Source of the DNA: Neoarius graeffei
Taxonomy: Eukaryota; Chordata; Actinopteri; Siluriformes; Ariidae
DNA length: 64,000 nt
Assembly (NCBI RefSeq): GCF_027579695.1
Contig: NC_083579.1
Span: 72,401,371-72,465,370, forward strand
Reading direction: 5' to 3'
Part shown: positions 11,088 through 60,809 of the stretch, in pieces
Numbering within the stretch: position 1 is the stretch's first letter
Layout of the letters: the number at the start of each line of letters is the position of its first letter
The notes under the pieces: model-generated
The model's database searches: none
What the model was told of the DNA's origin: nothing
Seen by the model: the letters and a program-made list of their open reading frames with translations, nothing else
Program-made: the position numbers and the translations under genes

Positions 11088-11290
11088 TTTATTCATAACA
11101 CAGAAATACGCAGCGCCATCATTATAATCCACATTTTTAACTGTGAAAGGCTGAAAGTTGATCTTGGTTGAATTCTGGATTGTCCTCAGTGATGGTGTGC
11201 ACTCTGAGCTCCATTCTCTTTCCTTGGTGATGATGATACCAGTCCGATTACGGTTTGCATCCTTGATGTTTGAACAGTTTATTGTGGCCA
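11088..11290 (-). pseudogene. Subfamily A V pseudogene (V4), 5' truncated
   Basis: The 3' part of a V exon is recognisable: ATINCSN, then after a frame change FTVKNVDYNDGAAYFCVMN. The FR2 tryptophan motif is lost, leader and exon start are absent, and the RSS heptamer is degraded to GACAATG (11081-11087) with no nonamer. The upstream edge is fused directly to the downstream flank of V5 (CCACAGCTGCAGGTG). It cannot recombine efficiently or encode a domain. Confidence 0.8.
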
Positions 11291-28944: not shown

Positions 28945-29729
28945 GAACTCCCCGCCAACCGCCGCAGAGAACGGCCCGGTGAAGGTCCGCGTAGGCCAGC
29001 CGGCGGTTGGCGGGGAGTTATAGCGCGGCCAGCTGCGCCTCTCCCGTCAGGAGGGGGAGGAGGCGCGCCGCGCGCTGCTCCATCGGCCACCCCGAGGCTT
29101 CGGCGACCTGCTCGAACAATGTGAGAAACGCCTCGGGGTCGTCCTGCGGGCCCATCTTGGTCACGGTGAGGGGAGACGGGCCCGCGGCCGGGGCGCTGGT
29201 GGACCCCGCCGACGCGAGGAGATGCCGGAGCGCCTCGCGATCTTCCTGCTGGGCCAACACCAGGGCTTCGAAGCGCCGCTCTTGCTCCTTTCAGAGCGTG
29301 ACGAGCGCCTGGTGCTGGCTTTGCTGAGCCGTGGCGAGGGCGTGGACCAGGTCCGCGAACGGGGAGGATTCCATGGGGCTGCGAGGTTGGTGCTCCACCT
29401 TGTCCCGGGTTTTGGCACCACTGTAGAGCTCTCTGAAGTGTGGGTGGAGCACAGAGGACGGCAGGACAACGCTTCAGACACAAATAGGCTTTTTATTGCC
29501 AGACTTTTCAGTATAACCGCCAGTTTTAATCTGATAGCGAAACACACACTGTGTTCTTGTCCCGGGATGAGCTCTTCTCTGCTCTGCCTCCTTAAATAGG
29601 GCGCGGTTACTGGGAAAACACACAAAACACAGGTTAATTACCGTCAGGTGTAGTGATTTCTGCCACTCGCCTTCCCTGGCTCCGCCCTCCTGTCACAGAC
29701 CGGCGCTTGACCACGCCCCCGCTGCCACA
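28945..29729 (-). mobile_element. Fossil fragment of a Ty3/gypsy-like LTR retrotransposon (one LTR and the start of gag)
   Basis: 29422-29729 is an LTR (TGTGGCAGC to CTCTACA on minus) followed by a primer-binding-like GTGGTGCCAAAACCCGGGA and the N-terminal gag region, related to the element at 55908-60460. It is broken: most of the element is absent. It looks older than, or from a different subfamily to, the larger copy. Confidence 0.75.
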
Positions 29730-34606: not shown

Positions 34607-36217
34607 CAGTGGTGCTTGAAAGTTTCTGAACCCTTTAGAATTTTCTATATTTCTGCATAAATATGACCTAAAAAATCATCAGATTTTCACACAAGTCCTA
34701 AAAGTAGATAAAGAGAACCCAGTTAAACAAATGAGACAAAAATATTAGACCTGGTCATTTATTTATTGAGGAAAAATGATCCAATATTACATATCTGTCA
34801 GTGGCAAAAGTATGTGAACCTCTAGGATTAGCAGTTAATTTGAAGGTGAAATTAGAGTCAGGTGTTTTTAATCAGTGTCATGACAATCAGGTGTGAGTGG
34901 GCACCCTGTTTTATTTAAAGAACAGGGATCTATCAAAGTCTGATCTTCACAACACATGTTTGTAGAAGTGTATCAAGGCACAAACAAAGGAGGTTTCTGA
35001 GGACCTCAGTAAAAGTGTTGTTGATGCTCATCAGGCTCGAAAAGTTTACAAAACCATCTCTAAAGAGTTTGGACTTCACCAATCCACAGTCAGACAGAGT
35101 GTGTACAAATGGAGGAAATTCAAGACCATTGTTACCCTCCCCAGGAGTGGTCGACCAACAAAGATCACTCCAAGAGCAAGGCATGTAATAGTCGGCGAGG
35201 TCACAAAGGACCCCAGGATAACTTCTAAGCAACTGAAGGCTTCTCTCACATTGGCTAATGTTCATGTTCATGAGTCCACCATCAGGAGAACACTGAACAA
35301 CAATGGTGTGCATGGCAGGGTTGCAAGCAGAAAGCCACTGCTCTCCAAAAAGAACATTGCTGCTCGTCTGCAGTTTGCTTAAGATCACGTGGATGAGCCA
35401 GAAGGCTATTGGAAAAATGTTTTGTGGATGGATGAGACCAAAATAGAACTTTTTGGTTTAAATGAGAAGCATTATGTTTGGAGAAAGGAAAACACTGCAT
35501 TCCAGCATAAGAACCTTATCCCATCTGTGAAACATGGTGGTGGTAGTATCATGGTTTGGGCCTGTTTTTCTGCATCTGGGCCAGGATGGCTTGCCATCAT
35601 TGATGGAACAATGAATTCTGAATTATACCAGCGAATTCTAAAGGAAAATGTCAGGACATCTGTCCATGAACTGAATCTCAAGAGAAGGTGGGTCATGCAG
35701 CAAGACAACGACCCTAAGCACACAAGTCGTTCTCCCAAAGAATGGTTACAGAAGAATAAAGTTAATGTTTTGGAATGGCCAAGTCAAAGTCCTGACCTTA
35801 ATCCAATCGAAATGTTGTGGAAGGACCTGAAGCGAGCAGTTCATGTGAGGAAACCCACCAACATCCCAGAGTTGAAGCTGTTTTGTACGGAGGAATGGGC
35901 TAAAATTCCTCCAAGCCGGTGTGCAGGACTGATCAACAGTTACCGCAAATGTTTAGTTGCAGTTATTGCTGCACAAGGGGGTCACACCAGATACTGAAAG
36001 CAAAGGTTCACATATTTTTGACACTCACAGATATGTAATATTGGATCATTTCCCTCAATAAATAAATGGCCAAGTATAATATTTTTGTCTCATTTGTTTA
36101 ACTGGGTTCTCTTTATCTACTTTTAGGACTTGTGTGGAAATCTGATGATGTTTTAGGTCATATTTATGCAGAAATATAGAAAATTCTAAAGGGTTCACAA
36201 AGTTTCAAGCACCACTG
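34607..36217 (+). mobile_element. Tc1-like transposon (family 1), full length
   Basis: 1611 bp, ends CAGTGGTGCTTGAAAG and inverse, TA at 34605-34606 and 36218-36219. This is the full-length relative of the deleted copies at 899 and 9865. Confidence 0.92.
34975..35997 (+). pseudogene. Tc1 transposase (family 1), start lost and one stop
   Basis: The frame is 1023 nt (340 codons) with no indel. The expected initiator is AAG here (KAQTKEVSED against MARTKEISED in the deleted copies), and TAA interrupts codon 136 (LQFA-stop-DH) at 35380-35382. It has the helix-turn-helix region (TISKEFGLHQSTVRQ), then the DD34E triad: VLWMDETKIE, QQDNDPKHT, SPDLNPIEMLW. Catalytic residues are intact, so only two lesions separate it from a complete frame. 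It is not expected to be made as a full protein. Confidence 0.9.
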
Positions 36218-48256: not shown

Positions 48257-49832
48257 CAACCCCGATTCCAAAAAAGTTGGGACAAAGTACAAATTGAAAA
48301 TAAAAACGGAATGCAATAATTTACAAATTTCAAAAACTGATATTGTATTCACAATAGAACATAGACAACATATCAAATGTCGAAAGTGAGACATTTTGAA
48401 ATTTCATGACAGCAACACATCTCAAAAAAGTTGGGACGGGGGCAATAAGAGGCTGGAAAAGTTAAAGGTACAAAAAAGGAACAGCTGGAGAACCAAATTG
48501 CAACTCATTAGGTCAATTGGCAATAGGTCATTAACATGACTGGGTATAAAAAGAGCATCTTGGAGTGGCAGCGGCTCTCAGAAGTAAAGATGGGAAGAGG
48601 ATCACCAATCCCCCTAATTCTGCGCCGACAAATAGTGGAGCAATATCAGAAAGGAGTTCGACAGTGTAAAATTGAAAAGAGTTTGAACATATCATCATCT
48701 ACAGTGCATAATATCATGAAAAGATTCATAGAATCTGGAAGAATCTCTGTGCGTAAGGGTCAAGGCCAGAAAACCATACTGGGTGCCCGTGATCTTCGGG
48801 CCCTTAGATGGCACTGCATCACATACAGGCATGCTTCTGTGTTAGAAATCACAAAATGGGCTCAGGAATATTTCCAGAGAACATTATCTGTGAACACAAT
48901 TCACTGTGCCATCCGCTGTTGCCTGCTAAAACTCTATAGTTCACAGAAAAAGCCGTATCTAAACATGATCCAGAAGCGCAGACGTCTTCTCTGGGCCAAG
49001 ACTCATTTCAAATGGACTGTGGCAAGGTGGAAAACTGTTCTGTGGTCAGACGAATCAAAATTTGAAGTTCTTTATGGAAATCAGGGACGCCATGTCATTC
49101 GGACTAGAGAGGAGAAGGACGACCCAAGTTGTTATCAGTGCTCAGTTCAGAAGCCTGCATCTCTGATGGTATGGGGTTGCATTAGTGCGTGTGGCATGGG
49201 CAGCTTACACATCTGGAAAGACACCATCAATGCTGAAAGGTATATCCAGGTTCTAGAGCAACATATGCTCCCATCCAGATGACGTCTCTTTCAGGGAAGA
49301 CCTTGCATTTTCCAACATGGCAATGCCAAACCACATACTGCATCAATTACAGCATTATGGCTGCGTAGAAGAAGGGTCCAGGTACTGAACTGGCCAGCCT
49401 GCAGTCCAGATCTTTCACCCATAGAAAACTTTTGGCGCATCATAAAATGGAAAATACGACAAAAAAGACCTAAGACAGTTGAGCAACTAGAATCCTACAT
49501 TAGACAAGAATGGGTTAACATTCCTATCCCTAAACTTGAGCAACTTGTCTCCTCAGTCCCCAGACGTTTACAGACTGTTGTAAAGAGAAAAGGGGATGTC
49601 TCACAGTGGTAAACATGGCCTTGTCACAACTTTTTTGAGATGTGTTGTTGTCATGAAATTTAAAATCACCTAATTTTTGTCTTTAAATGATACATTTTCT
49701 CAGTTTAAACATTTGATTTGTCATCTATGTTCTATTCTGAATAAAATATGGAATTTTGAAACTTCCACATCATTGCATTCCGTTTTTATTTACAATTTGT
49801 ACTTTGTCCCAACTTTTTTGGAATCGGGGTTG
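48257..49832 (+). mobile_element. Tc1-like transposon (family 2), full length
   Basis: 1576 bp, ends CAACCCCGATTCC and its near-inverse, TA at 48255-48256 and 49833-49834. Inserted in the inverted L2-like copy. Confidence 0.92.
48590..49612 (+). pseudogene. Tc1-like transposase (family 2), one stop and one catalytic change
   Basis: A 1023-nt frame from MGRGSPIPLILRRQ to VSQW, with a helix-turn-helix (KGVRQCKIEKSLNISSST), WSDESKFEV and SPIENFW. A single TGA at 49280-49282 (codon 231, after MLPSR) interrupts it, at the same codon as one stop in the copy at 13698-14720. The second catalytic Asp is replaced: the motif reads FQHGNAKPH where the other copy has FQHDNAKPH. An upstream in-frame ATG at 48536 is less likely because MGRG is the conserved start. 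Confidence 0.9.
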
Positions 49833-50605: not shown

Positions 50606-51019
50606 TACAGCACTGTCGCTCACTGAAAGACTGTTTATGGTCAAAGAGCCGTTGTTTCTCCCATCACCACTCAGTTTCATCTTCACTCCAAATTCTGCCT
50701 CCAGGTTTGGAAAAATATTATTTAGATACCCCATGTATGTAAATCCAGTGTCCTGGCTGTGTTTGTACCACAGAATGCGGTCATAGTCCTGTCCATTGTG
50801 CTCACAGTTGATCTCAGCAAACTCATTTTGATCCTTTATGAGATCAAGAGGCTTCTGGACTACTACAGCACAAACAGCCGAGCCTGTGGAGAGAAAGATT
50901 ATGTTAAATGGAAAATGAATCTTGACATGATTGGTTGTAGATTTTTTTTAAAAGAAAATGTTCGGCTTACCTGCAAGATATAATAGTGTGGCAGAAAATA
51001 TAATGAGAACAGGACGCAT
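50606..51019 (-). pseudogene. Subfamily B-like V pseudogene (V13), 3' truncated, no RSS
   Basis: Leader exon 50971-51019 (MRPVLIIFSATLLYLAG) and V exon 50606-50883 with normal splice sites and an open frame: GSAVCAVVVQKPLDLI, INCEHNGQDYDRILWYKH, VKMKLSGDG, SLTINSLSVSDSAV. Homology stops right after SDSAV; TYR-PHE-CYS and the RSS are missing, and a TGA follows at once. It cannot rearrange. The break adjoins unique sequence, not a recognisable element end. Its N-terminus is more diverged than in other B genes. Confidence 0.85.
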
Positions 51020-53781: not shown

Positions 53782-55499
53782 GACTAATATTCTTCCCCTT
53801 CTTCTTCTTCTTTTGGCTGATCCCGATTAGGGGTCACCACAATGGATCTTTCGTCTCCATTGCTCCCCGTCTTCCGCATCCTTCTCTACCACACTTGCCA
53901 CTTTCATGTCCTCTCTCACCTCATCCATGTATCTCCTCTTTGGCCTTCCTCATTTTCGTTTGCCTGGCAGCTCCATCCTCAACATTCTCCTTCCCACATC
54001 CTCTGCATATCTTCTCAGGATGTGCCCATACCATCTCAATCTCATCTCTCTTAGCTTCATTCCCAAGCTCTCCACATGTGCTGCCCCTCTGATGTGCTCA
54101 TTCCTTATCCTGTCCAACCTTGTCACTCTCATCGCAAACCTTAACATCCTCAACTCCGCCACCTCCAACTTTGCCTCCTGTCTCTTCGTTAAGGGTACAG
54201 TCTCCAATCCATACATCACAGCTGGTCTCACTACTGTCTTATACATCTTACCTTTCACTTTTGCTGGGACTTCCTATCACAAATGACTCCTGAAATCCTT
54301 CTCCACCTGCTCCACCCTGCCTGCACTCTCTTTTTCACCTCACTATCGCAGCCCCCATTTTCCTGCACAGTTGACCCCAGGTACTTGAATTCACCAACTT
54401 TCTTTTCGTCTACTTCTTGCATCTTCACTACACTCTCATCCCCATTCTCAATGATGCACATGTATTCTGTTTTGCTACTGCTCACCTTCATTCCTCTTTG
54501 TTCCAATGCATCCCTCCATCTCTCCAAACCCAACTCAACCTCCTTTCTACTTTCACCACATATCACAATATCATCCGCAAACATCATGTTCCATGGTGAC
54601 TCTTGCCTCACTTCGTCCGTCAAGCTATCCATCACTATGGCAAACAAAAAAGGACTCAAAGCAGATCCTTGATGGAGTTCCACCTTCACCTTGAACCATT
54701 CAGTTGTTCCGACTGCACACCTCACTGCTGCTTCACTGTTCTCATACATGTCTTGCACCACTCTAATATACTTCTCATTCACTCAACACTTTCTCATACA
54801 ATACCATAACTCATCTCTCGGCACTCTATCGTGTGCCTTCTCCAGGTCTACAAACACACAATGTAGTTTTCTCTGGCCTTCTCTGTACTTCTCCATTCAC
54901 ATTCTTAAAGCAAAAATTGCATCCGACGTGCTCTTCCTTGGCATAAACCCGTACTGCTGTTCACAGATTGCTACCTGTCTTCTCAATCTCGCCTCCAATA
55001 CCCTTTTCCATAGCTTCATGGTGTGGCTCATAAATTTTATTCCTCTCTAATTACTGCAGCTCTGTACATCTCCCTTATTCTTGTATATTGGGACTAGCAC
55101 ACTCTTTCTCCATTCATTTGGCATTTTCTCATTCTCTAGGATCTTATTAAACAATCTCGTTAGGAACTCCACAGCCGTCTCACCCAAACATCTCCAAGCC
55201 TCAATCGGGATACCATCTGGTCCGACTGCTTTCCCAGTCTTCATTCTTTTCATGGCTGCCCTCACCTCATCCTTACTAACCAACTCTGCTTCCTGATTTG
55301 CTGTCTCCAATGAATCTGAGCTTTTCTCTCTTGGATTCTCCTCATTTAATAAATCCTCAAAGTACTCTTTCCACCTTCTTAATACACTCTCTTTGTTTGT
55401 CAGCACATTTCCATTTACACCTTTCATCACTCTTACCTGCTGTACATCCCTCGCTTCCCTGTTTCTCTGCCTAGCTAGTCTGTAAAGGTCTTTCTCTCC
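53782..55499 (-). mobile_element. RTE-like LINE, 5' truncated
   Basis: The imperfect duplication TTATCCAACCG lies at 53771-53781 and 55500-55510. On minus the RT region contains MKTGKAVGPDGIPIEAW, LHQGSALSPFLFAIVMD, WNMMFADDIVICGE (catalytic FADD), VGEFKYLGSTVQENGG and a C-terminal LRWYGHILRR. The 3' end is (GAA)n. The frame is interrupted by stops and at least one shift, and the endonuclease is absent. The motif style matches the RTE group. Confidence 0.85.
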
Positions 55500-55720: not shown

Positions 55721-55758
55721 GAGTTTTTGCAAAGGGATGAGGAGATATGAGACGCTGT
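55721..55758 (-). other. V14 pseudogene recombination signal sequence
   Basis: Heptamer CACAGCG (consensus but for position 6) at 55752-55758, a 22-bp spacer, and nonamer CAAAAACTC at 55721-55729. Confidence 0.7.
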
Positions 55759-58700
55759 GTAAATGCTGCACAGAAATATTCTGCGCTGTCATTAGGTGTA
55801 AGGGATTTAATGGTCAATACGCCTTTACTGTCTCCGTTCCCTGTCAAGGACATCTGAATGTTAAATTCAGGTTCCAGTTGAGATTGTGAAAGAAAATTGT
55901 ATCCCATTGTAGGAATGAGAGCGGGTGGGTGGAGCACAGAAGTACGACAGGCCAGAACTGAGTTCCAAAAACTCTTTATTTCTGCACTTTTCAGTGTCTA
56001 ATTTTCACTCTCCCAGCCACACACACATACACACACACAAGTCATCTGGTTGGGGAGAGAACTCCCTTCCTCTGCTCTCTCTTTCCTTTTATAGGGCATG
56101 GTCACTGGGGAAGACACACAAACACAGGTTAACTAACATCAGGTGTAGTGATTCTGCCACTTACCTTCCCTGACTCCGCCCTCTGTTCACAGACCAACGC
56201 TTGACCACGCCCCCGCTGCCACATACCCCCACCGCCCGACACAGGCCGGGGAGCCGTCCAGCCTGCAGCTGACTCCCTCCCCCCCTTGACGGGAGAGGAA
56301 ATCCGCCATGACCATCTGCGCCCCCGGCCTGTGGATCACCTTGAATTTAAACGTCTGGAGTGCCAGATACCAACGGGTGATCTGTGCATTGGCATCCTTC
56401 ATGCGGTGGAGCCCCAGGAACTGTCTCACCCCCTTTTTGGTCTTGGGCCTTGGGCAGGCCGCAATCACTGCCGTCTTATTAATTTGGGGATGCACCTGCC
56501 CATTGCCCAAGTGGAAGCCCAGATACCGTACTTCCACCCGCCCAATCGCACACTTCTTCAGGTTGGCTGTGAGACCCGCTCGCCTCAGCAACCTAAGGAC
56601 GGCCCTCAGGTGTTGTAGATGCCGTGGCAAGTCATTACTATAGATTATAATATCGTCCAAGTATGCGGCCGCATAGGTGGCATGGGGGCGGAGGACCCTA
56701 TCCATAAGCCGCTGGAATGTAACGGGCGCCCCAAACAGCCCAAAAGGAAGTGTGACAAACTGGTGTAAGCCAAACGGTGTGGAAAAGGCTGTTTTCTCTC
56801 GGGATAATGGAGTCAAGGGGATCTGCCAATATCCCTTTGTCAAATCCAGTGTCGAATAAAAACGAGCTGTGCCTAGTCGATCAAGCAACTCATCAATACG
56901 AGGCATTGGGTATGCATCGAATTTAGACACTGCGTTGACTTTTCTATAGTCCACACAGAACCGGACCGACCCGTCGGCCTTGGGAACCAAGACCACCGGG
57001 CTGCTCCAGTCACTGTGGGACTCCTCGATGATGCCCATGTAGAGCATGGCCTCGAGTTCTTTCCGAACCACCTTTTTCTTGTTTTCGGGCAGCCTGCAAG
57101 GGCAGCTGTGCACTACCACCCCCAGGGACGTCTCAATGTGGTGTTCTATGAGGTGGGTGCGGCCGGGCAGGGGTGAGAACACGTCTGAAAATTTGGCTTG
57201 CAACTGGGCAACCTCCGTGAGTTGGGTCGAGGAGAGGTGGTCTCCACAGGAGACTGGAGTGGTAAGCGATGCCAATGTTCCCCTTTGAACCTCCGGCCCC
57301 AGCTACGCCTTCTCTGGAACCAACAACACCAACGCCATAGGGACCTCCTTGTTCCAAAGTTTTAACAGATTGAGATGGTAAATCTGTAACGCCCCGCCCC
57401 TGTCCATTCGCCTCACCTCATAGTCGATGTCCCAGACTCGCCGTGTGACCTCAAAGGGTCTTTGCCACTTGGCGATCAATTTGGAGCGCGACGTGGGCAA
57501 CAGCATGAGCATTTTATCTCCCAGTGCAAACTCCCTAAGGCACGTGCCCCATTGTACAGGCAGATTTGCCATTCTTGGGCCTGCCGCAAATTCTCCTGGG
57601 TTAGGTGTGTGAGCGTGTGGAGTTTTGCACGCAGGTCGATAACATATTGAATTGCATTCTTGCTTGTTGAAGGTCCCTCCTCCCAATTTTCCCGCAGCAC
57701 ATCTAGGTTGCCACTTGGCTTACGCCCATATAATAATTCGAACGGGGAGAACCCCGTGGAGGCTTGTGGGACCTCTCGCACTGCGAAAAGCAGGGGCTCG
57801 AGCCATTTATCCCAGTTACGTGCGTCCTCGCTTACAAATTTTTTAATTATGTTTTTGAGGGTGCGATTAAACCGTTCGACTAAGCCATCCATTTGTGGGT
57901 GATAAATGCTGGTGCGGATCAGCTTAATTCCCAATAACCCATACAGTTCGCGCAGTGTGCGTGACATAAAAGTAGTGCCTTGATCAGTCAGAATCTCTTT
58001 GGGGATTCCAACTCAGGAGATGACGTGGAAGAGTGCTTCCGCAATACTACGTGCTAAGATATTGCGAAGAGGCACTGCTTCCGGGTATCACGTTGCATAG
58101 TCCACCAGAACTAAAATAAAGTGATACCCTTGTGTTGACCGATCTAATGGCCCGACGAGATCCATCCCAATTCTTTCGAACAGGATCTTGATTAATGGCA
58201 GAGGGCACAAAGGCCCTTTTGGAATGGCCGCTGGATTTACTAACTGGCACTCGCAGCACGCTGTACACCACCTACTGACATCGCCGCGAATCCCTGGCCA
58301 ATAGAACCGGGCCATTATTCGGGCTAGTGTCTTATCCTGCCCCAAGTGTCCAGCCATGGGATTAAAGTGAGCTGCCTGGAATACCAATTCCCGGCGGCTC
58401 TTTGGGATCAAAAGTTGTGTTATTGGCTCCTTAGTCTGAGTGTCCTGCATCACTCGGTATAATCTATCTTTCATAATGGAAAAGTAGGGGAAGGACGGGG
58501 TGGCATTTGGCTGGAGCGTTTGACCATCGATTACTCTACTTGGTCAAACGCATGCCGCAGAGTCTCGTCTCGCGACTGCTCTAACGGGAAATCCGCGAGG
58601 GAATCCCCAAGAGAGGGAGGAGGAGCCTGCTGCTCCTCACTCTGATGTGGTGATGATGTAGATGGCTCTGTGACAGCTGCTCCTGCCAATGCCACACCGG

Positions 58701-60216
58701 GACCTCCCCCTGCTGAACTACGGCAGGACCCACTCTGAACTAAATGAGTCATTAATTCCTGAAATCCTGGCCAATCAGTCCCCAAAATTATTGAGTGGGT
58801 AAAGTGAGGATTAACTGCTGCCTTTACACTAAATTTCTCCCCTCGAAATAAAATGTGGACCGACACTAAAGGGTAGTTGTGAACATCCCCGTGCACACAC
58901 AACACCTTCACCAATTGTGCTCTCCCCCATGCCTTGTCTTGCACCAGGCTTTGGTGGATTGAGGTCTGATTACAGCCGGAGTCCACCAAAGCCTGATACG
59001 TATCCCCTTGGATACTCACCAGTATGCGATATGCTCCGGCCCGATCGAGGGCGGTCCCTGGCGCATCAGGGATCTGGACCACCGTACCCACCTCCATCAC
59101 CGAGTACTGATGCTGGAGGTGCCCCGGCTCCCTGCAGCACCAGCAAACCGGCCCGGGCTCTCTCTCTGCACCGGCATTCTGGAGCTCACTCACCTGAGGG
59201 GGGGAGAGACAAACACGGAAGTAGGAAATGGGAGGGCACCGCGGGTGCGGTGGGCCGGCTGGGGTGGAGCCGGCCCCCGCCTCCGCGGTGGGGGAATGGG
59301 GCGAGGAACAGAAGGGGAGGGGGAGAGAGAGAGTGAGGAGGGGGAGAAGAGGAGACAGGCTGTCCTGCCGTGGGAACAGCCACCAAATGGTCCTTCGCCA
59401 GCTCGATGGCCCGATCCAGCGACGCTGGGCGGTGGCACTGAACCCACTCCGTGGTTCCTTCAGGGAGTCGGGTAATGAACTGCTCCAGTACCACCAGATC
59501 GATGAGTCCCTCAGCGTAGCGGTTGTCAGCCCTCAGCCACCGCCAGCAGGTGTCCCGGAGTTGCTGGCCAAAAGTAAACGGCCGGCCGACCTCCTCTAGG
59601 CGCAGAGCGCGGAAGTGCTGTCTTTGTTGTTCCGGAGTGCGCCTCACACGCTGGAGGATGGCCCGGCACAGGTCTGCGTAGACCAGCCGGCTGTCGGCGG
59701 GGAGCTGTAGCGCAGCCAGCTGCGCCTTGCCCTTTAGCAGGGGAAGGAGGCGTGCCGCGGGCTGTTCCACCGGCCACTCCCAGGCCTCTGCTGCCTGCTC
59801 AAAGAGCGCGAGGAAGGCCTCAGGGTCATCGTGCGGGCCCATCTTCTTTAAGGTGAGGTGGGGAGGGCCCGCGGCGGTGGAGGACCTCGCCAACGTGAGG
59901 AGGTGCCGGAACGCCTGACGATCTTCCTGCTGCGCCAGCACCAGGGCCTCGAACCTTTGCTCCTGCTCCTTTCGGAGGGCAACCAGCGCCTGGTGCTGGC
60001 TCTGTTGGGCCTTGGCGAGGGCATGGATCAGGTCCTTGAAGGGGGAGGATTCCATGGGGCTGTTCTCCTCTGTGCTCCGGTCCCGGTTTTCGGCACAACT
60101 GTAGGAATGAGAGCGGGTGGGTGGAGCACAGAAGTACGACAGGCCAGAACTGAGTTCCAAAAACTCTTTATTTCTGCACTTTTCAGTGTCTAATTTTCAC
60201 TCTCCCAGCCACACAC

Positions 60217-60278
<62 letters not shown>

Positions 60279-60809
60279 GTCATCTGGTTGGGGAGAGAGC
60301 TCCTTTCCTCTGCTCTTGCTCTCCTTTATAGGGCGTGGTCACTGGGGAAGACACACAAACACAGGTTAACTAACATCAGGTGTCGTGATTCTGCCACTTA
60401 CCTTCCCTGATTCCGCCCTCCGTTCACAGACCGATGCTTGACCATGCCCCTGCTGCCACACCCATGAACTAGTATTCTCTGCTTCTGGGTTGTTTGTACC
60501 ACAAAATGCGATTGTAGCTTGTAATATTGTGAAAGCACTGAATCTCTGAAGATTGTCCATGCTTCCTGAGCAGATCATGAGGAGTTTGGAAAACATCTGG
60601 GAAAAAAAAAGTGTGAGAAAGGACAGACAAATACCTTCAAATACAAACTCAAGGTGTTGCATTATATAAAATGTTTGTTTTTTTTTTAATCTAAAAGACG
60701 TTGTGAAAAGTTCCTCATGGGACTAATTACGAAGAAAAAAAATACCTGCTGCCCAGATTAAAGAAAGGATGGTGGTGATGAGAGTGAATATACACAAGAG
60801 TTTATTCAT
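55759..60809 (-). pseudogene. Divergent V segment (V14) split by an LTR retrotransposon
   Basis: Leader exon 60746-60809 (MNKLLCIFTLITTILSLIWA). The 5' part of the V exon is at 60461-60596 (VFQTPHDLLRKHG, IQCFHNITSYNRILWYKQ); the 3' part is at 55759-55907 (YNFLSQSQLEPEFNIQMS, LTIKSLTPNDSAEYFCAAF) with an RSS. Between them sits a 4.5-kb LTR element flanked by CCCAT at 55903-55907 and 60461-60465. A TAG also interrupts the V exon near CDR2 (60471-60473). Framework residues mark it as a third V subfamily. It is inactivated. Confidence 0.88.
55908..60460 (-). mobile_element. Fossil Ty3/gypsy-type LTR retrotransposon, Gmr1-like domain order
   Basis: LTRs lie at 55908-56223 and 60100-60460, starting TGTGGCAGC and ending CCTACA on minus, with a CCCAT target duplication. 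Internal parts in order on minus: gag (about 60060-59190) with a CWCCREPGH zinc knuckle, protease (LVDSGCNQTS, about 59000), integrase with zinc-binding and core regions (about 58470-57480), then reverse transcriptase with YLDDIII (about 57270-56190). Integrase before RT is the Gmr1 order. It is broken, with roughly five breaks. The two LTRs differ by about a dozen substitutions plus repeat length, so it is fairly young. Confidence 0.85.

Follow-up and report, generated by a model that had tools for sequence, protein, structure and literature searches.

The window, that is, the whole 64,000-nucleotide stretch of Neoarius graeffei DNA that was analysed, contains an array of V genes that all lie on the minus strand, as found by motif search and tblastn. 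Subgroup A consists of seven full V exons, one 3'-truncated exon and one exon that is cut off where the window begins, and subgroup B of three full exons and one degenerate relic. Nucleotide identity is 81-99% between members of A and 84-99% between members of B. The truncated gene (50606-50863) loses its similarity just ahead of the second cysteine, and the B relic (~11094-11241) adjoins a full subgroup A gene. A tblastn match at 19082-18960 (E 0.82) was too weak and was left out of the V count. Pfam V-set was matched above the cut-off by the one A gene and the one B gene scanned. With an A-subgroup V as the query, no confirmed relative was found among viral contigs, a collection that is not meant for fish genomes.

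One further V gene of the array is split. It has two exons on the minus strand, and its V exon is interrupted by a 4,553-bp LTR element at 55908-60460. The leader exon (60746-60809, 64 nt) is followed by a donor GT at 60745-60744, and the 5' half of the V exon (60461-60596) is preceded by the acceptor TTTTTTTTTCCCAG, which is pyrimidine-rich and ends in AG. An in-frame TAG at 60471-60469 ends 8 bases ahead of the insertion point. On the other side of the element, the 3' half of the V exon (55760-55907) reads MGYNF ... YFCAA and runs into a recombination signal (55722-55759) composed of CACAGCG, a 22-bp spacer and GCAAAAACT. The spacer has the same length as in subgroup A and belongs to the long-spacer class of 22-23 bp found in the ten other full V genes, while the heptamer is one base off CACAGTG, the heptamer present in all ten of them in the window. 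The leader exon with its splice donor and the recognisable recombination signal of the original prediction were thus both found.

Joining the flanks with a single copy of CCCAT gives 276 bases, or 92 codons, in a single frame with no gap and with one TAG. When the acceptor G, which is equal to the G contributed by the leader, is counted as the first base, the translation is DVFQTPHDLLRKHGQSSEIQCFHNITSYNRILWYKQPRSREY up to the stop and FMGYNFLSQSQLEPEFNIQMSLTGNGDSKGVLTIKSLTPNDSAEYFCAA after it. Apart from the TAG the frame is open from framework 1 to YFCAA, both cysteines and the tryptophan are kept, there is no frameshift and the splice sites are retained. The stop codon reported earlier in the V exon is the only one in the joined frame. 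Compared with one subgroup A V protein of 84 residues, the 5' half matches residues 1-38 and the 3' half residues 37-84, and the overlap between the two matches corresponds to the duplicated bases only. Alignments with full subgroup A genes also cross the joint without a gap. V framework does, then, stand on both sides of the element, and the two halves fit one V protein contiguously; an origin from different V genes had been named beforehand as the outcome contrary to the prediction. The 3' half scored 22.8 bits against Pfam V-set, under the cut-off of 26, and the 5' half alone (42 residues) gave no Pfam match. With a leader, an intron, a V exon with two cysteines and a tryptophan, and a long-spacer signal, the gene has the features of an antigen-receptor V gene, as had been proposed.

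The split gene shows 59-60% nucleotide identity to eight of the nine subgroup A members, 54% to the truncated ninth and 40-44% to the three full B genes. The threshold used for V subgroups is 75% identity (PMC8656973), in a report that trimmed its sequences somewhat differently. By that rule, the split gene would stand as a subgroup of its own and as the sole member within the 64-kb window. The earlier claim of a third subfamily with no other copy therefore stands for these 64 kb only.

Regarding the receptor chain, the V sequences of the array and the mix of mobile elements presumably point to a teleost host, and the receptor is, to judge by its V sequences, most likely a T-cell one. A search against solved structures was run with the split V, one A gene and one B gene. 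T-cell receptor chains, as far as they were recognised, made up 12 of the 60 matches listed of 3,348 for the split V, none of the 60 listed of 7,690 for the A gene and 21 of the 60 listed of 6,243 for the B gene. Among the listed matches the top one was an antibody construct for all three queries, and the two V domains present in many antibody constructs may raise their scores. As judged from such matches, T-cell receptor and antibody V domains are not separated. With regard to J and C genes, the search for a 12-spacer signal pattern gave no match in the 64-kb window. Outside the element, 10 of the 104 open reading frames of at least 90 aa were scanned with Pfam, of which seven had transposon-type matches, one had a zinc-finger match and two had no match.

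Other mobile sequences were seen in the window. A 695-aa minus-strand frame at 23461-25545 matches endonuclease and reverse transcriptase and is of the LINE type; it stops within the reverse transcriptase domain. Two minus-strand frames within 54258-55499, a short way downstream of the split V gene, read like LINE pieces; the one at 54258-54782 matches RVT_1, and the one at 55050-55499 has no Pfam match. Two transposase-like frames, at 48527-49279 (Pfam PAX match, with HTH_Tnp_Tc3_2 under cut-off) and at 35383-35994 (DDE_3 match), read as probable Tc1/mariner types. No tRNA was detected by ARAGORN in the window, nor any Rfam match at gathering scores.

The element inside the V exon is bounded by a 5' LTR of 361 bp (60100-60460), in which a CA run is expanded, and a 3' LTR of 316 bp (55908-56223) with TATAAAA at 56093. 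Both contain AATAAA, at 60172 and 55980, respectively, and a repeat search returned them as two direct copies. All of its parts are on the minus strand. The gag frame (59189-60055) matches SCAN (Pfam PF02023, E 2.5e-20) and is followed by a protease-like frame (58534-59532) with a weak aspartic protease match (E 1.4e-4, under the Pfam cut-off). The integrase region (57306-58543) consists of three open pieces: an H2C2 zinc finger (58091-58543, E 2.4e-20), a partial rve core (57479-58012, E 3.9e-4, under cut-off) in the frame of H2C2 but in a separate open stretch, and a C-terminal piece in a different frame (57306-57719, E 3.9e-6). The reverse transcriptase (56190-57302, RVT_1 E 2.7e-34) lies downstream of the integrase. 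The demonstrated order on the minus strand is therefore gag/SCAN, protease, H2C2, integrase core, integrase C-terminal and reverse transcriptase.

The best solved-structure match of the reverse transcriptase was the Ty3 RT/RNase H 4ol8 (E 2.7e-57), followed by the Ty3 Gag-Pol 7q5b. The piece covers residues 21-297 of the 4ol8 chain, and a second stretch against residues 433-475 scored a non-significant 3.5 bits, as if the intervening part were missing. With the E limit set to 10, Pfam gave no RNase H match for the reverse transcriptase piece, in a search in which the HMMER filters drop most matches above ~0.1. Searches of viral contigs with the reverse transcriptase piece and with gag gave no confirmed relative, and the LTR matched nothing in phage records, both collections not being meant for fish genomes. 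A second partial, Gmr-related copy lies on the minus strand at 28967-29729, with an LTR-like part (85% over 156 columns) followed by a weak 74-column piece, and with a gag start after the LTR-like part (80% over 415 columns). Its second LTR was not found by blastn.

Since the integrase stands ahead of the reverse transcriptase and the gag contains SCAN, both traits published for Gmr1, the element looks like a defective Gmr1-like Ty3/gypsy retrotransposon as judged by gene order and domain matches. The integrase-first order is described as a Gmr1 trait (PMC8220671, PMC3587641), and a link with SCAN is reported for Gmr elements (PMC4131045, PMC3424704). According to the available text of a frog survey, SCAN occurs in >50% of Gmr elements and in no other elements (PMC4131045). 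Gmr elements are also reported in fish, and the four Gmr consensus sequences given for Tetraodontiformes measure 6,058-6,465 bp, their LTRs being 337-518 bp long (PMC11117352). The present element shares with this type the integrase upstream of the reverse transcriptase, the SCAN match in gag and a reverse transcriptase closest to Ty3. However, at 4,553 bp it is ~1.5-1.9 kb shorter than those consensus sequences, its integrase is interrupted and no RNase H was detected in it.

Both LTRs end in TG...CA, and CCCAT (on the plus strand) directly abuts the outer end of each, at 55903-55907 and 60461-60465, the positions at which a duplication had been predicted. If all four bases are taken as equally frequent, the chance that the two outer ends share the same 5 bp is ~1/1,024. 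Integration by retroviral-type integrases leaves a short duplication of the target, and 5 bp suits Ty3/gypsy elements. Paired LTRs, TG..CA ends and a short flanking direct duplication are the marks of an LTR insertion, and nothing observed contradicts one. The insertion of one LTR retrotransposon split one V gene, with gene and element in the same orientation. Taken as a whole, the preferred reading is that a teleost germline antigen-receptor V gene, most likely of a T-cell receptor, was hit once by a Gmr1-like Ty3/gypsy element in the orientation of the gene (probability about 0.9).

Under this reading, the element would have inserted into the V exon near the border between framework 2 and CDR2, where the joint lies, and the integrase would have cut with a 5-bp stagger, giving the CCCAT duplication. 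The element may have decayed later, leaving the integrase interrupted and RNase H not found, or may have been defective beforehand and copied using the proteins of another element. The leader, the splice sites and the recombination signal would have been left in place, and a transcript of the V exon would meet the stop and, after it, an LTR that carries a polyadenylation signal itself, so the gene is probably dead in the living animal.

What had been called an inactivating insertion holds to the extent that a single V gene had its V exon disrupted by a single LTR element in one event. The insertion as the cause of inactivation was not demonstrated, since the TAG may be older or younger than the element and the heptamer, too, departs from the consensus. 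The suggested removal of a specificity from this haplotype may have taken place, the present view covering 64 kb of a single haplotype. Of the 315 sites compared between the two LTRs, 13 differ (11 by transition, 2 by transversion), which gives a K2P distance of 0.043 (SE 0.012); there are also a length difference of 46 columns at the CA run and a gap of one base. The 13 substitutions are confined to the first 163 columns of the alignment (Fisher p 2e-4, with the split chosen post hoc), and seven of them have CG in one LTR, six of those seven being transitions. When the other, partial copy of the window, which aligns poorly at later sites, served as the outgroup, seven changes were assigned to the 5' LTR and six to the 3' LTR, and one-sided gene conversion was rejected as the source of the differences on this near-even division. 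Half of the LTR divergence, taken as the per-site change since insertion, corresponds over 276 bases to about six exon substitutions. On the same assumption, the exon has a computed chance of 0.21-0.24 of having gained at least one stop after the insertion if the central divergence is used, and of 0.09-0.34 over the full range of values tried.

These values bear on two orders of events, both compatible with the main reading, between which the data do not decide. The V gene may already have been a pseudogene with a TAG and a weakened heptamer, so that the element hit neutral DNA with no functional effect. The stop does lie outside the element, the heptamer CACAGCG departs from the one shared by the other full V genes, and the limited chance of a later stop mildly favours a prior one without requiring it; against this, the joined exon is otherwise intact, while more damage would be expected in a long-dead gene. 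This history is given slightly less than an even chance. The opposite order, in which the insertion went into a working gene and the TAG came later, fits an otherwise open exon and the six or so substitutions expected in it since the insertion, but a stop within that time has a chance of about 1 in 4-5. It, too, was judged to fall just short of even odds.

Two other possibilities would leave some use for the gene. The element could be spliced out like an intron, leaving a V gene that is still usable, as in salmonid TRBV6, which is reported with one functional copy per genome and an interrupted V exon (PMC10464911). A GT is in fact present where the upstream V half meets the element (60461-60460), and the 3' half contains eight AGs. 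However, the element ends in ACA and not in AG, and its last 33 bases are free of AG. Splicing to the nearest AG past the element (55855-55854) would cost the 54 bases that follow the LTR. TRBV6 itself has two introns and is described as functional in the available text (PMC10464911), whereas here the interruption is a retrotransposon lacking a terminal AG. With this ending and the stop 8 bases upstream of the junction, the spliced intron was rejected and is considered next to impossible. The other possibility is that the 3' LTR, which has the orientation of the gene, promotes the 3' V half and its recombination signal. An ATG lies exactly at the duplicated site (55907), with A at -3 and G at +4; it shares the frame of the V exon and comes after the TAG. 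If transcription is assumed to start 25 bases past the TATAAAA, two upstream ATGs, at 56045 and 56028, begin short frames of 15 and 7 residues. Such promotion may occur but is very improbable; if it did, the rearranged product would be a shortened chain lacking both the leader and framework 1.

Returning to the main reading of a single insertion into one V gene, V pseudogenes are already in print, as are single-member pseudogene subgroups and fish Gmr elements. In channel catfish TRB, 14 single-member subgroups are reported, and 6 of 112 TRBV genes are pseudogenes through loss of the open frame (PMC8656973). TRBV8P and TRBV17P of the same locus are single-member pseudogenes, as the split gene is in its window, and have functional homologues in other catfishes (PMC8656973). 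The catfish TRB pseudogenes are defined by splice sites, stops and frameshifts, and a retrotransposon in a V exon is not described in the available text of that report (PMC8656973). Among TRBV genes, pseudogenes account for 15 of 188 in rainbow trout and for 18 of 119 in Atlantic salmon (PMC10464911), and in the latter species also for 123 of 239 TRAV genes; for the Atlantic cod loci described, one V pseudogene is reported. Among the papers listed in a literature search, no title or abstract start concerned an LTR element inside a receptor V exon, which is not proof of absence, and the available portions of the bovine TRB (PMC2685407), opossum (PMC2275272), salmonid, catfish and cod papers mention no V exon split in this way.

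The split gene is thus a well-preserved instance of an ordinary kind of gene loss, and the general view of receptor loci is unchanged by it. It provides a clean record of the loss of a receptor V gene to a mobile element, in a gene that is alone in its subgroup within the window. Should alleles without the element segregate, the split gene would represent a natural knock-out of one V gene.
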